A stretch of DNA of 64,000 nucleotides from Cellulomonas marina (GTDB lineage Bacteria; Actinomycetota; Actinomycetes; Actinomycetales; Cellulomonadaceae), in the NCBI RefSeq assembly GCF_900111925.1, contig NZ_FOKA01000002.1, positions 1 through 64,000 of the forward strand, in the 5' to 3' direction. How positions within the stretch are numbered: position 1 is the first letter of the stretch; the number at the start of each line of letters is the position of its first letter. The position numbers were made by a program, and so were the translations under genes. Positions 5,711 to 36,763 of this stretch are shown one piece after another. The notes under the pieces are model-generated. The model was not told the DNA's origin. It saw only the letters and a list, made by a program, of their open reading frames with translations, and did no database searches.

Positions 5711-7629
5711 GCGGGATGAGCGAGTCCCACCCCCTCGGTCACCGCGCCCGCCCGCTGCTCCAGCCGCACCACGACGGGTCCCCGCTCTACGCGGGGACGG
5801 ACGCACCGGGCCCGGGGGACACCGTCTCCGTGCGGGTCCGCGTGCCGTCCGTCCCCGGCGCCGACGCGCGCGACGCCCGCGTCGTGCTGCGCTGGGTCCG
5901 GGACGGCGAGCCCGTGCTGCGCGAGGCGGTCCGGGACGGCGACGACGACGCCGGCGCCTGGTTCACCGCGGACCTCGAGGTGAGCAACCCCGTCACCTCC
6001 TACCGGTTCGTCCTCGTCGAGGGCGGCCGGTACCGGGTGCTCAACGCGGAGGGCCTGCACGCGCGCGACGTCTCCGACGCGGGCGACTTCCTCGCCTCCT
6101 CGCACGCCGGCCCGCCCGGCTGGGTCGCCGACCAGGTCGCCTACCAGGTGTTCCCCGACCGGTTCGCACGCTCGGGCGTGCAGCGGCCGCTGCCGGACTG
6201 GGCGCTGCCCGCCGGCTGGGACGACCCGGTGGTGCACCGCGGGCCGGACACGCCCCGCCAGGTGTACGGCGGCGACCTCGACGGGGTCGCCGCCCACCTG
6301 GACCACGTGGCCGACCTCGGGGCGACGCTGCTGTACCTCACGCCCGTCTTCGAGGGCCGCTCCAACCACCGCTACGACGCGCGGACCTTCGACCGCGTGG
6401 ACCCGCTGCTGGGGGGCGACGAGGCGCTGGTGCGCCTCGTGCAAGCCGCGCACGCGCGGGGCATCCGGGTCGTCGGCGACCTCACCCTCAACCACACGGG
6501 CGACGACCACGACTGGTTCCGCGCCGCGCAGGCCGACGCGGGCGCACCCGAGGCCGGGTACTACACGTTCCACGAGCACCCGCACCGGTATGCCTCGTGG
6601 CTCGGCGTGCCGAGCCTGCCCAAGCTCGACCACCGGGCGCCGGCCCTGCGGCGGGCGCTGTACGAGGGGCCGGGCTCCGTCGTCGACCGGTGGCTGCGCG
6701 CGGGCCTCGACGGCTGGCGGATCGACGTGGCGAACATGACGGGGCGCCTCGGCGCGACGGACCTGGCGCACGACGTCGCGCGGGCCGTGCGCGGCACCAT
6801 GGCGCCCGACCGGTGGCTGCTGGCCGAGCACGGGCACGACGCCGCGCCCGACCTCGCCGGGGACGGCTGGCACGGGACCATGGACTACGCCGCCTTCACG
6901 CGGCCGGTCTGGACGTGGCTCAACGGCGGGGGGCCGCAGGGCCCCGGGCTGCCGCACGGCCTGGAGTACCTCGGGATCCCCGTGCCGGTGCCGGTGCTGC
7001 CGGCGACCGCGGCGGTGGCGACCCTGCGGGAGGTGCGCGCCCGCGCGCCCTGGCGTGCCTGGACGTCCTCGACCCTGCACCTCGACTCGCACGACACGCC
7101 GCGGTTCCGCACGGTGGCCGGCGGCGGCACCCACGGGGGCGTCGACCGCGAGGGGCACGGGCGGGCCCGGCACCTCGTCGGGCTCGCGCTGCAGATGACG
7201 CTGCCCGGCGTGCCGAGCATCTTCGCCGGCGACGAGCTCGGGCTCACCGGCACGGACGGCGAGCACTCCCGCACCCCGTTCCCGTGGGACCGGCGCGGCA
7301 CGTGGGACGACGAGAGCCTCGACGCCTACCGCACCTGGGTCGACACCCGTCGGGCGCACGTGGCGCTGCGCCGCGGGGGCCTGCGGTTCGTCGACGTGGG
7401 GGAGGACCACCTCACGTTCCTGCGCGAGCACGCGGACGGCACGGTGCTCGTGCACGCCGCGCGGGCGCCGCACGGGCCTGTGGTGCTGCCGGCGGCGGCG
7501 CTCGGCGTCGCCGGCGCGGCCGCGCTCGAGCCCCTGACCCCGGGGACCGGGGCGGCGGCCGACGTCGGCGCCGGCCTCGTCGTGCTGCCCGCGGACGGTC
7601 CCGCCGCCCACGCCTGGCGCCTGCCCTGA
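5707..7629 (+). CDS. Glycoside hydrolase family 13 (neopullulanase/alpha-glucosidase-like)
   Basis: An enzyme of the alpha-amylase family, 640 aa, with no signal peptide, so it probably hydrolyses imported maltodextrins in the cytoplasm. The first ~110 residues look like a beta-sandwich N-terminal domain of the cyclomaltodextrinase/neopullulanase type. The GH13 conserved regions are all present: DLTLNH (258-263), GWRID with the nucleophile Asp340, the acid/base Glu374 in AEHG, and LDSHD with Asp463. The last gene of the transporter operon; its ATG overlaps the malG TGA. An alternative ATG at 5716 has a better-spaced AAGGG. Exact specificity cannot be read from sequence. Confidence 0.9.
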   Translation: MSGMSESHPLGHRARPLLQPHHDGSPLYAGTDAPGPGDTVSVRVRVPSVPGADARDARVVLRWVRDGEPVLREAVRDGDDDAGAWFTADLEVSNPVTSYRFVLVEGGRYRVLNAEGLHARDVSDAGDFLASSHAGPPGWVADQVAYQVFPDRFARSGVQRPLPDWALPAGWDDPVVHRGPDTPRQVYGGDLDGVAAHLDHVADLGATLLYLTPVFEGRSNHRYDARTFDRVDPLLGGDEALVRLVQAAHARGIRVVGDLTLNHTGDDHDWFRAAQADAGAPEAGYYTFHEHPHRYASWLGVPSLPKLDHRAPALRRALYEGPGSVVDRWLRAGLDGWRIDVANMTGRLGATDLAHDVARAVRGTMAPDRWLLAEHGHDAAPDLAGDGWHGTMDYAAFTRPVWTWLNGGGPQGPGLPHGLEYLGIPVPVPVLPATAAVATLREVRARAPWRAWTSSTLHLDSHDTPRFRTVAGGGTHGGVDREGHGRARHLVGLALQMTLPGVPSIFAGDELGLTGTDGEHSRTPFPWDRRGTWDDESLDAYRTWVDTRRAHVALRRGGLRFVDVGEDHLTFLREHADGTVLVHAARAPHGPVVLPAAALGVAGAAALEPLTPGTGAAADVGAGLVVLPADGPAAHAWRLP

Positions 7630-13519: not shown

Positions 13520-15148
13520 TCAGAAGCGGAACTCCTCCGTGCGGGCGTGCAGCTCCGCCGACATGCGCGACAGGCCCTGGACGGACCCGCCGACCTGCTC
13601 GGCGACCTGCGAGCTCGTGCCCGCCGCGCCCGCGACCACGGAGATCGTCGAGGCGATCTCGCTCGACCGCTGCGCGGCCTCCGCCACGCCCCGCGACATC
13701 TCCGAGGTGGTCGCGGTCTGCTCCTCGACCGCCGAGGCGATCGTCATCTGGTAGTCGTTGATGGACGCAATGATCTGCGCGATCTGGCCGATGGCGCTCA
13801 CCGCGCCCTGCGTGTCGGACTGGATCGCGTCCACACGGCGGGCGATGTCCTCCGTGGCCTTCGCCGTCTGGCCGGCCAGCTCCTTGACCTCGCCGGCCAC
13901 GACCGCGAAGCCCTTGCCGGCCTCGCCGGCGCGCGCCGCCTCGATGGTGGCGTTGAGGGCCAGGAGGTTGGTCTGCTCGGCGATCTGCGTGATGGTCCGG
14001 ACGACCTCGCCGATCTCCTGGCTGGAGACCCCGAGGCGCGCGACCTGGTCGTTCGTCGTGGCGGCGACCTCCGTCGCCTGGGTGGCGACCTTCGCGGCGG
14101 CCGCGGCGTTCTGCGCGATCTCGCGGATGGAGCTGCCCATCTGCTCGGCACCCGCGGCGACGACCGCGACGTTGCGCGACACCTCCTCCGCGGCGGCCGA
14201 GAGCTCCTCGGTGCGCACGCTGGTGTCCGCCGAGCTCGTCGCCACGCGCCGGGCGGCCTCGTCGAGCCCGCCGGTCGCGTCGGCGACCGACCCGGCGGCC
14301 ACGGACACGCCCTGGAGCGTGTCGCGCAGGCGGGCCCGCACGTCGTTGAGCGTGGCGGCCATGCGGCCGAGCTCGTCGGCCGCGTGCACCTCGGCGGCCA
14401 CGGTGAGGTCGCCCTCGGCGATGGCGTGCAGGGCGGTCTCCACGCCGCTCACGGACCGGCGGACCGAGCGTGCCACGGCGAGCCCGAGCGCCAGCGTCAG
14501 CGCGATGGTGCCCGTGATGCCGACGACGATCAGCGTCTGCACGCTGCGCGCGGTGGTCTGGGCGTCGGCCGCGGTCCCCGCCGCCCAGGCGTCGCCGCCC
14601 GCAGCCAGCGCGTCCAGCTCGTCCACGTAGGCGCTCTTGAGGGGTTCCGTGACGTCCGCCAGCACCTGCTCGTACGTCGCGGCATCACCCGACAGCGCCG
14701 CCGGGACGAGCTCCGCGTCACGGGCCTCCCGCCAGAGGGCGAAGGCCTCGAGGAACTCCTCCCAGTGCGGCAGCGGCGCCGTCGTGTCGACGAAGGTCTG
14801 CACGTCGGCGATCGCCGCGTCGAGCTCGGCGTCGTTCTCGACGAGCTCGGCCTGCCAGTGCTCGACCTCGTCCGGGCTGGCCACCGCGGCGAGCTGCGCG
14901 ACGATCATGCGGGACTTGAGCTGGTTCTGGTGGATGGTCTGCGTCGGCCTCAGGACGTCGGTCTGCACCTGCGCCAGGTCCTGCGTCTGCCCGGAGACCG
15001 TGCCCAGCGCGGCGTAGGCGGCCGTGCCGAGACCGAGCCCGGCGGCGCAGAACACGCCGACGAGGCCGAGCAGCTTGGAGCGGACGGACAGGTCCGCGAA
15101 CGGGCGGCGGCGGGGCGTCCCGGAGGTGACGGTGGTGGTGCGGCTCAT
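13520..15148 (-). CDS. Methyl-accepting chemotaxis protein
   Basis: A transmembrane chemoreceptor of 542 aa. Order: short cytoplasmic N-terminus; TM1 around residues 24-46; an extracellular four-helix-bundle-type sensor of about 150 residues; TM2 around residues 191-212 ([22 protein letters not shown]); HAMP; then the coiled-coil signalling domain. The highly conserved CheA/CheW-binding hairpin is intact ([20 protein letters not shown]). No C-terminal CheR-tether pentapeptide. The ATG at 15148 has AGGAG 4 nt upstream. It implies a motile or chemotactic organism; no che or flagellar genes lie nearby, so it is an orphan receptor. Confidence 0.95.
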
Positions 15149-15284
15149 GGTGCTCCTGTGCGCGAGGGCGGCAGACCGGGGGCGGCTGATGCGCACGGGT
15201 GCTCGTGCGACTCGTCCTGTCGTTCGGCAGCGGGTGCCGCGCGGTGAGCGGTCGCCCCCGGCTGGTAGCGTCCGTGACCCGAAC

Positions 15285-15936: not shown

Positions 15937-16228
15937 GGTGACCGTCCCCCTCTCTCACGCCGCATCCGTGCGGCATGTCACCTCATCGGTCGCGGGCCTG
16001 CCGTCCTTGACACTTGCGGCGGGACCACGTGCCCGGTGGACCCCGCTCTCGTCCGGTCGGCCCCGCTCGAGGGGGAGGAGACACCACCGCAGCGGGTGAT
16101 ACCACGGGTGGTCGACACGACCGGCGCCTGCCACGTCCGCGCCGGTGAGAGGCGTGCGACCCTCGACCGGTCACCCGGACGGCCCAGCCGCGGGGGGTTG
16201 CGTCCGCTTCCGTCCGGGGCGGGGGATC
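15937..16228. other. Intergenic region upstream of the bldC promoter
   Basis: About 290 nt without a supportable gene, between the hypothetical gene on the minus strand and the bldC promoter and leader. I see no clear structure here. Confidence 0.5.
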
Positions 16229-16258
16229 TTGCCGCGATGTCCGCCTTTCCGGCATAGT
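16229..16258 (+). promoter_or_regulatory. Promoter of the bldC riboswitch leader
   Basis: TTGCCG (16229-16234) and CATAGT (16253-16258) are spaced by 18 nt. The expected start point is near 16265, a few nucleotides before the GEMM-like aptamer, so the leader RNA would begin almost exactly with the aptamer. Confidence 0.6.
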
Positions 16259-16270
16259 TCGTGCCGTCAG

Positions 16271-16340
16271 CGACAAGGGCAAACCCACCGCGAGGTGGGG
16301 ACGCAGAGCCACGGGGCCCCACGGGTCAGCCGAGCCGCCG
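16271..16340 (+). ncRNA. GEMM / c-di-GMP-I-like riboswitch upstream of bldC
   Basis: The leader carries the hallmark c-di-GMP-I (GEMM-I) core: AGGGCAAAC (16276-16284), a six-base-pair P2 stem CCCACC/GGTGGG capped by a GCGA (GNRA) tetraloop (16284-16299), then GGACGCAGAGCC (16299-16310; consensus GGACGCAAAGCC). A P3-like helix pairs 16315-16319 with 16323-16327 and 16312-16314 with 16330-16332. The element ends in the GCCGCC that corresponds to the conserved GCUGCC end. I could not draw a convincing P1. The bldC SD (16347-16351) is only ~7 nt beyond the aptamer, which fits translational control. The G preceding CAAAC is kept, as in c-di-GMP rather than cGAMP variants. Confidence 0.8.
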
Positions 16341-16358
16341 AACGACAGGAGAGCTCCC

Positions 16359-16589
16359 ATGAGCACCGCCACCACGTCCCTCGCCGAGCTCCAGGCCGCC
16401 CAGGGCGCGCTCCTCACGCCGGGCGAGGTCGCCAGCCTCTTCCGCGTGGACCCCAAGACGGTCACGCGCTGGGCCCAGGCCGGCAAGATCTCCGCGGTCC
16501 GCACCCTCGGCGGCCACCGCCGGTTCCACGAGGCGGAGATCCGCCAGCTCCTCCAGGGCGTCCCGCAGCAGGCCGCCTCCGCCGACTGA
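16359..16589 (+). CDS. bldC: BldC-family MerR-like developmental regulator
   Basis: A 76-aa single-domain DNA-binding protein. The winged-HTH region (about residues 17-67: [20 protein letters not shown], then [19 protein letters not shown]) is nearly the same as the Streptomyces BldC protein that I recall, including the GGHRR wing. It lacks the MerR C-terminal effector domain; BldC binds direct repeats cooperatively. The ATG at 16359 has AGGAG 7 nt upstream. It is preceded by a GEMM-like riboswitch, suggesting that cyclic di-GMP controls its synthesis. In Streptomyces, BldC controls entry into development; in a non-sporulating relative the regulon is unknown. Confidence 0.95.
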
Positions 16590-16671
16590 GCCCCGGGAAC
16601 CCGAGCTCGCCGCGCACCCGCCCGCCGGCCACGACGCCGGCGTGCGGGTCCGCGCGTGGGAGGATCGGGGC

Positions 16672-17160
16672 ATGGCCATGCGTGACATCCGTGTCGTCCC
16701 CGACCCCGTGCTCCGCACCCCCTGCGAGCCGATCCGCGAGGTCGACGAGCGGGTCCGAGCCCTGGTCGAGGACCTGCTCGAGACCGTCGACACCGAGGGA
16801 CGCGCGGGGCTGGCGGCCAACCAGATCGGCGTCTCGCTGCGCGCGTTCTCCTGGAACATCGACGACGAGGTCGGGTACGTCCTCAACCCGACGATCGTCG
16901 AGCTGAGCGAGGACGAGTACCAGGACGGCGAGGAGGGCTGCCTCTCGGTGCCCGGCCTGTGGTACCCGACCCACCGGGCCTGGTACGCCCGGGTCGAGGG
17001 CACGGACCTCGACGGTCGGCCGGTCGTCGTCGAGGGCACCGAGCTGATGGCCCGGTGCCTGCAGCACGAGGTGGACCACCTCGACGGGAAGCTCTACCTC
17101 GACCGGCTCGAGCGGTCCGTCCGCAAGAAGGCCATGCGCGCGCTGCGCGACCAGCTGTAG
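16672..17160 (+). CDS. def: Peptide deformylase
   Basis: A metal enzyme that removes the N-formyl group from nascent proteins; 162 aa. The three motifs are present: GLAANQIG (residues 46-53, motif 1), EGCLSVPG with metal ligand Cys90 (motif 2), and QHEVDHLDG with His132, catalytic Glu133 and His136 (motif 3). The ATG at 16672 is chosen for GGAGG at 16659-16663; an ATG at 16678 is also possible. Upstream in-frame codons lack an SD. It follows bldC by 82 nt on the same strand. Confidence 0.96.
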
Positions 17161-36271: not shown

Positions 36272-36672
36272 GGATGAGTCGGTCAGGCGGCCGCGTCGGA
36301 CGGGTGCTCGCACCGGTCCGCCGAGGAACGTCCGGGCTCCGCAGGGCAGGGTGGTGGGTAACGCCCACCCGGGGTGACCCGCGGGACAGTGCCACAGAGA
36401 ACAGACCGCCTCCCGGTCCCCGGTCCGCCGGGGGCAGGGCGGTAAGGGTGAAACGGTGGTGCAAGAGACCACCAGCGCACCGGGTGACCGGTGCGGCTCG
36501 GCAAACCCCACCCGGAGCAAGGCCAGACAGGGAGCGCTCGAGGGCTGCCCGCCCGAGCTCCCGGGTAGGCCGCTGGAGGCGTGCGGCGACGCACGTCGTA
36601 GATGGATGGTCGCCACCCGCACCGGGGCAACCGGGTGCGGGGACAGAACCCGGCGTACCGACCGACTCATCC
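36272..36672 (+). ncRNA. rnpB: RNase P RNA (type A)
   Basis: The catalytic RNA that matures tRNA 5' ends. The P1 helix is perfect over 13 bp: GGATGAGTCGGTC (36272-36284) with GACCGACTCATCC (36660-36672). The universally conserved GAGGAACGTCCGGGCTCC (about 36323-36340) and the 3' ACAGAACCCGGCGTA (36643-36657) are present. The GGTAAGGGTGAAACGGTG segment (P10/11 region) and AGAGACCACCAGC also match. About 401 nt. No protein-coding gene is needed to explain 36264-36775. Confidence 0.97.
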
Positions 36673-36763
36673 GCCCCGCACGGGCGCCCGGACCCGGCGC
36701 CGGTGTGGCCGAGCGCACGGGGCACCTCCGCCGGCACCTCCCCGGCACCGGGGCGCCCGCGTC

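Follow-up and report, generated by a model that had tools for sequence, protein, structure and literature searches.

Cyclic di-GMP steers the development of actinobacteria through known proteins, namely BldD and the pairing of RsiG with WhiG. In Streptomyces, BldD represses bldC and whiG (PMC4255298), and c-di-GMP arms RsiG against WhiG (PMC8325347). Cellulomonas shares with this system the signal and the regulator families BldC and WhiG (PMC4255298, PMC8325347), but the sensor in Streptomyces is a protein, whereas the candidate sensor in Cellulomonas is an RNA leader on a second BldC copy.

RNA sensors of the c-di-GMP-I class (GEMM-I, RF01051) and their c-AMP-GMP variants have been described (PMC7266159), and a c-di-GMP-I-GGC subtype (RF03167) has been named in a source that assigns most tandem c-di-GMP riboswitches to other phyla (PMC12452182). 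In V. cholerae, the Vc2 riboswitch is described as turning translation OFF, with P1 playing the key part (PMC9262584). The leader described here has in common with Vc2 a score over the cut-off of the class model, residues G20, A47 and C92, a P2 helix capped by a tetraloop, and a position in the 5′ leader. It differs in that its target is an actinobacterial BldC copy and in that the Shine-Dalgarno sequence follows the aptamer so closely that there is therefore no long expression platform. In the open-licence literature searched, a target set of BldC, a small protein and WhiG was not found for a c-di-GMP-I aptamer; papers that name BldC and a riboswitch together concern other matters, and one that names both Cellulomonas and a riboswitch (PMC7804937) deals with a riboswitch biosensor engineered in Azospirillum. 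As a class the sensor is known, but its target set may surprise specialists in actinobacterial development.

An aptamer of the c-di-GMP-I class ahead of a BldC-family gene

The window is the whole stretch of 64,000 nucleotides of Cellulomonas marina DNA that was analysed. A gathering search of the whole window with Rfam returned a match to RF01051 at 16268-16342 (+) with 47.9 bits against a curated cut-off of 35 and E = 2.9e-6 for 64 kb, the model being covered over its full length (1-87). The original prediction of a c-di-GMP-I class aptamer in front of a BldC-family gene is borne out by this covariance score, and the core elements that it listed, AGGGCAAAC, a GCGA-capped P2, GGACGCAGAGCC, P3 and a GCCGCC end, are all present in the sequence at the place it gave. 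The P2 hairpin, CCCACC-GCGA-GGTGGG, occupies 16284-16299 (+), and P3 with its loop occupies 16307-16336 (+). With the Vc2 numbering of the ligand contacts, a guanine contact falls at G20 (16278, +), the residue stacked between the ligand's two guanines at A47 (16305, +), and a further guanine contact at C92 (16338, +); all three residues are present. Elsewhere in the window, a class A RNase P RNA is found at 36275-36673 (+) with 266 bits.

The open reading frame 3′ of the aptamer (16359-16589, +) encodes a protein of 76 amino acids, named BldC2 here, which belongs to the BldC family (NF033787, 100.8 bits, cut-off 77), matches HTH_17 and MerR in Pfam, and shares its helix-turn-helix family with Streptomyces BldC, whose structures 6amk and 6ama are matched at E = 1.5e-25. 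Four nucleotides, rather than the approximately seven originally proposed, separate the end of the aptamer from the Shine-Dalgarno sequence AGGAG (16347-16351, +), which was read from the sequence and is mirrored in the aligned leaders by a purine-rich site a few nucleotides past the aptamer. Seven more nucleotides lead to the ATG.

Conservation of the fold was followed in an alignment of 73 related leaders, 67 of them distinct, each extending from the presumed 5′ base as far as the start codon, with the structure of the window's aptamer, plus a P1 extension of three pairs, carried over to all rows. In the 67 leaders 95.6% of the cells are paired. Of the 23 pairs, 8 have changed on both sides, as have 63 cells, which none of 500 shuffles and no slid control reached; these covariation counts refer to sequences and not to evolutionary events. 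Three of the covarying pairs lie in P2 and four in P3, the two helices for which the original prediction had called for compensatory changes, and one lies in the P1 extension. The six pairs of P2 are formed in 99.8% of cells and the ten pairs of P3 in 92.1%, with one P3 pair unpaired in 46 of the 67 rows, where C faces A (it is U-A in five). The two pairs of the core P1 hardly vary and are neither supported nor contradicted by covariation, and RNAalifold alone recovered P2 and P3 but not P1. The P1 extension, in which GUC (16266-16268, +) could pair with GAC (16344-16346, +) directly adjoining the Shine-Dalgarno sequence, is paired in 93.5% of cells over the 67 leaders. Ten rows belonging to one subclade show a change from C-G to G-C, and the same ten rows lose the outer pair of the extension in this alignment, although a shifted register would restore pairing. 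Three rows (L039, L043, L045) have a broken middle pair. The contact residues are nearly invariant, with G20 in 65, A47 in all 67 and C92 in 66 of the 67 leaders, and the window copy differs from most relatives at positions 48, 90 and 91, where it has G48, C90 and G91.

Coupling of the aptamer to one BldC copy

Among 60 Cellulomonas genomes, the aptamer is found in 58 (127 copies in total) and BldC-family genes are found in all 60 (133 in total). In 58 of these genes, exactly one in each of 58 genomes, the helix-turn-helix match is preceded by an aptamer at a distance of 55-68 nt, so that the conservation anticipated in related leaders holds for one BldC copy in 58 of 60 genomes. Taken with the fold and the contact residues, this strict coupling to a single BldC copy across the genus is demonstrated by computation. 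The two genomes that lack the pair, G050 and G054 (61% complete), each carry just one BldC gene, and in two others (G012 and G046, 89% and 81% complete) the aptamer-bearing copy is the only BldC gene seen. By coordinates, no aptamer lies within 300 nt of 75 among the 133 genus genes of the BldC family. A pattern scan of canonical BldC leaders found no aptamer core in 62 loci (59 distinct places), and Rfam returned no c-di-GMP match in 18 of these loci.

Beyond the genus, a sample of 61 genomes from 25 genera of the family has the aptamer in 19, and in 18 of these 19 it precedes a BldC gene; one genome (G067) has two such arrangements. Scanning a genome collection with an exact pattern for this type of leader, from which the window's own genome was possibly left out, gave 45 stretches, all from Cellulomonas, Pengzhenrongella or Micrococcales/Actinomycetales bins. 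By the rule of the script, 42 of the 45 stand before a BldC reading frame, one (L286, C. uda) stands before a bldC that looks frame-shifted, and two (L281, L325) stand before a small protein ending in VPAQVR. In C. uda (L166 / L286) the bldC behind the aptamer seems to change frame close to a stretch of C residues. Peptide deformylase is encoded within 3 kb downstream in 21 of 43 named relative loci.

The order search matched 24 of 198 genomes (22 over the cut-off), 19 of the matching genomes lying outside the family, and the class search matched 43 of 394, 39 of them outside the order, with stricter search filters in both. No BldC-like motif was found in the six frames of 46 loci, which comprised 20 of the 22 matches from those 19 order genomes and 26 loci from 26 of those 39 class genomes. 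As read by eye in these more distant loci, the aptamer precedes secreted-looking proteins, response regulators or pilins, one response regulator (L066) having been confirmed by Pfam.

The relationship of the two kinds of BldC was examined in a tree of 76 columns containing 62 distinct aptamer-bearing proteins, 52 distinct canonical proteins and a stretch of Streptomyces BldC; the third, fourth and fifth copies of BldC that 11 of the 60 genomes carry stand outside this tree. The aptamer-bearing proteins fall on one side of a branch with support of 98/95, and the Streptomyces row sits among the 52 canonical, aptamer-free copies. The tree is unrooted, its bootstrap had not settled, and it has long branches (L197 among others). 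Midpoint rooting attaches three aptamer-bearing rows (L195, L196, L198) on the canonical side, and the tree for this reason does not establish a single clade of aptamer-bearing copies. The window gene lies across the 98/95 branch from Streptomyces BldC and does not group with it as an orthologue would, on a tree whose root is not fixed. The original prediction of a BldC-family gene changes in one respect: the window gene is a second BldC copy, and the canonical copy, the one grouping with Streptomyces BldC, lies elsewhere in the genome without an aptamer.

Other targets of the aptamer in Cellulomonas

The host genome (3.96 Mb) holds four RF01051 aptamers, of which the window copy scores lowest, the other three reaching 64, 61.8 and 61.2 bits. 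These three precede a long protein with PKD domains, a protein of 54 amino acids in which no Pfam or NCBIfam match was found, and a FliA/WhiG-family sigma factor that scores 261.3 bits with TIGR02479 and 340.5 with the WhiG equivalog NF004935, against a cut-off of 343 for the latter. The same genome has 38 GGDEF matches (some of which are two pieces of one domain) compared with 3 to 6 in four comparison genomes.

Across the genus, 69 aptamers do not stand before bldC. A small protein follows 57 of them, a WhiG-type sigma factor (here, one over the TIGR02479 cut-off) follows 2, and other genes follow 10, three of which (L085, L223, L224) resemble small proteins missed by the rule of the script. 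The small protein is a second conserved target, found behind an aptamer in 56 of the 60 genomes, and the WhiG-type gene lies directly behind an aptamer in two genomes, the host (L007/L003, G000:C22:394314-395309) and G059 (L215). Long reading frames that look secreted also follow aptamers (L001/L005, L048, L057, L237), PKD domains having been identified for L005.

Members of the small-protein family have 38-66 amino acids and a VPxQR-like word; the host member lies at 5784-5948 (minus) of locus L006, and the two members tested had no Pfam or NCBIfam match. Differences between close small reading frames number 167, 144 and 505 at the three codon positions, the pattern that coding sequence should give. 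The rule of the script demanded a VPAQR-like word, and its frequency among the small proteins is accordingly circular and not independent evidence; in L223 and L224 the word lacks its Q. Among the 62 distinct tails of the second BldC, 59 also have a VPxQR-like word. In looser form it recurs in 31 of the 52 canonical tails and in all six WhiG-type factors read, where it stands in the N-terminal extension whether or not the gene has an aptamer, and Streptomyces BldC carries a similar word, IPQQR. A word of five residues is weak evidence.

Ligand, sign of control and the proposed circuit

The aptamer might bind a ligand other than c-di-GMP, either as a member of the c-di-GMP-I-GGC subtype or as a sensor of 3′,3′-cGAMP. 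All ten BldC leaders sent to Rfam passed, six of them (L053, L146, L162, L011, L039, L049) being called RF03167, over its cut-off, and four c-di-GMP-I; the host aptamers before the PKD protein (L001) and the WhiG-type gene (L003) were likewise called RF03167 by score. For such relatives, the scores allow that GGC may be the appropriate label. To our knowledge, no ligand of the GGC subtype has been reported. The window copy also scores higher in bits with RF03167 (56.2, in a search of 701 bases) but remains under the cut-off of 59 and passes only that of RF01051, and residue 47 is A in all 67 leaders, where the RF03167 consensus has G; on its score and its A at residue 47 we reject the subtype for the window copy. 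As for cGAMP, an A at position 20 is the change associated with its sensors, and one relative's leader (L182) has it, against the 65 of 67 with G. A different ligand is on balance improbable. That the match is a chance resemblance, or an aptamer that has decayed and lost its function, is a reading to which we give hardly any weight: the window copy is the lowest-scoring of the four in its genome and departs from most relatives at three positions, but its E-value is small for 64 kb, its contact residues are in place, and position and covariation are conserved throughout the genus.

A further reading, in which c-di-GMP would control flagellar motility and chemotaxis through the bldC2 leader as a lifestyle switch, came with the original prediction and its report of a chemoreceptor gene 1.2 kb upstream. 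The gene (MCP signal, HAMP and 4HB domains) is present at 13520-15196 (minus), at a distance of about 1.1 kb from the leader, but it is not a conserved neighbour. No chemoreceptor signature was found within 4 kb upstream in 43 named relative loci, 24 of which span at least 2.5 kb there, and none was found in the 73 leader loci (about 3 kb each), which span only about 1.5 kb upstream and so say little. FlhA is present in 26 of the 61 family genomes and co-occurs with the aptamer by genome (15 with both, 4 with the aptamer only, 11 with FlhA only, 31 with neither; Fisher p = 1.9e-4), but by genus the corresponding counts are 5, 2, 8 and 10 (p = 0.38), both tests being uncorrected for phylogeny. 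An FlhA match is also found in 43 of the 60 Cellulomonas genomes, yet 16 of the 17 genomes that have none (one of the 17 only 89% complete) keep the aptamer-bldC pair, the exception being G050. All 19 aptamer genomes of the family sample, by comparison, encode a WhiG-type sigma factor, as do 11 of the 42 that have no aptamer (Fisher p = 1.8e-8), and by genus the counts are 7, 0, 5 and 13 (p = 0.0016), again uncorrected for phylogeny. G050 has neither an aptamer, nor a second BldC, nor a sigma factor over the TIGR02479 cut-off. The distribution of FlhA by genus, the genomes without FlhA and the unconserved chemoreceptor lead us to reject motility or chemotaxis as the main link, and the lifestyle switch is unlikely. 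Cellulomonas forms curdlan biofilms on nitrogen limitation (PMC7804937), and such a biofilm is a possible output of c-di-GMP in these bacteria.

The reading that we favour, and in which we place good confidence on the strength of sequence comparison, is that the leader is a c-di-GMP-I class riboswitch, probably beginning with the first base of the transcript, which sets translation of the second BldC, and that its regulon feeds a BldC/WhiG circuit. The promoter that had been placed just 5′ of the leader was not found by a simple sigma-70 scan; an ATAGT-type box nevertheless starts 12-14 nt before the GTC of the leader in 56 of 73 related leaders, and the window has CATAGT, a candidate -10-like element, at 16253-16258 (+). 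Because of this box the transcript presumably starts at 16266, with the aptamer itself, the GUC at 16266-16268 then being both the 5′ end of the RNA and the 5′ strand of the P1 extension. A search of 16050-16700 found no terminator-like hairpin, which, with a Shine-Dalgarno sequence 4 nt beyond the aptamer, suggests regulation at the level of translation. Binding of c-di-GMP to the predicted aptamer would stabilise P1, in which GUC pairs with GAC at 16344-16346, and the stabilised helix would crowd the ribosome site of BldC2, turning translation OFF.

The same aptamer could instead act as an ON switch, in which the Shine-Dalgarno sequence would pair with the 3′ strand of the aptamer in the ligand-free RNA, and c-di-GMP would claim that strand and free the ribosome site. 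The pairing would join CU-ACC, which contains C92, with GGAG, and the two pairings are mutually exclusive. In 34 of 72 BldC leaders the Shine-Dalgarno sequence is predicted to pair with the 3′ strand of the aptamer (expected pairing of more than 1 nt), but the average difference is small, the mean pairing of the Shine-Dalgarno sequence over the 72 leaders being 0.50 when free and 0.44 with the aptamer assumed to stay folded, the part after it then being folded alone. In 66 small-protein leaders the corresponding values are 0.37 and 0.27, with competing pairing in 20 of 66. The predicted mean pairing values decide nothing about the sign. The pairing moreover follows from two sequences conserved for other reasons, and a P1 extension adjoining the Shine-Dalgarno sequence would suggest occlusion instead. 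An ON switch is a serious possibility which we rate at somewhat under an even chance. A slight lean towards OFF at high c-di-GMP comes from analogy with Streptomyces, because BldD represses bldC and whiG there and reportedly works together with c-di-GMP (PMC4151990), and because c-di-GMP arms RsiG against WhiG.

Whatever its sign, the proposed riboswitch would govern a regulon consisting of the second BldC and the small VPxQR protein, joined in two genomes by a WhiG-type sigma factor. Since the distribution of this regulon follows that of WhiG and not that of flagella, the BldC/WhiG circuit is most likely where the signal enters. A more far-reaching proposal, offered tentatively and with more doubt than conviction, is that in the Cellulomonadaceae the c-di-GMP input to this circuit, which in Streptomyces comes by way of the proteins BldD and RsiG, passes through RNA, by one riboswitch class on the second BldC, the small protein and (in two genomes) the WhiG-type gene, and that the small protein is a new partner in the WhiG pathway. 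If the favoured reading is true, Cellulomonas would have an RNA route from c-di-GMP to the BldC and WhiG families that is independent of the known proteins, the conserved small-protein family would be a likely c-di-GMP target, and the riboswitch would provide a direct handle on the roles of BldC and WhiG outside Streptomyces.
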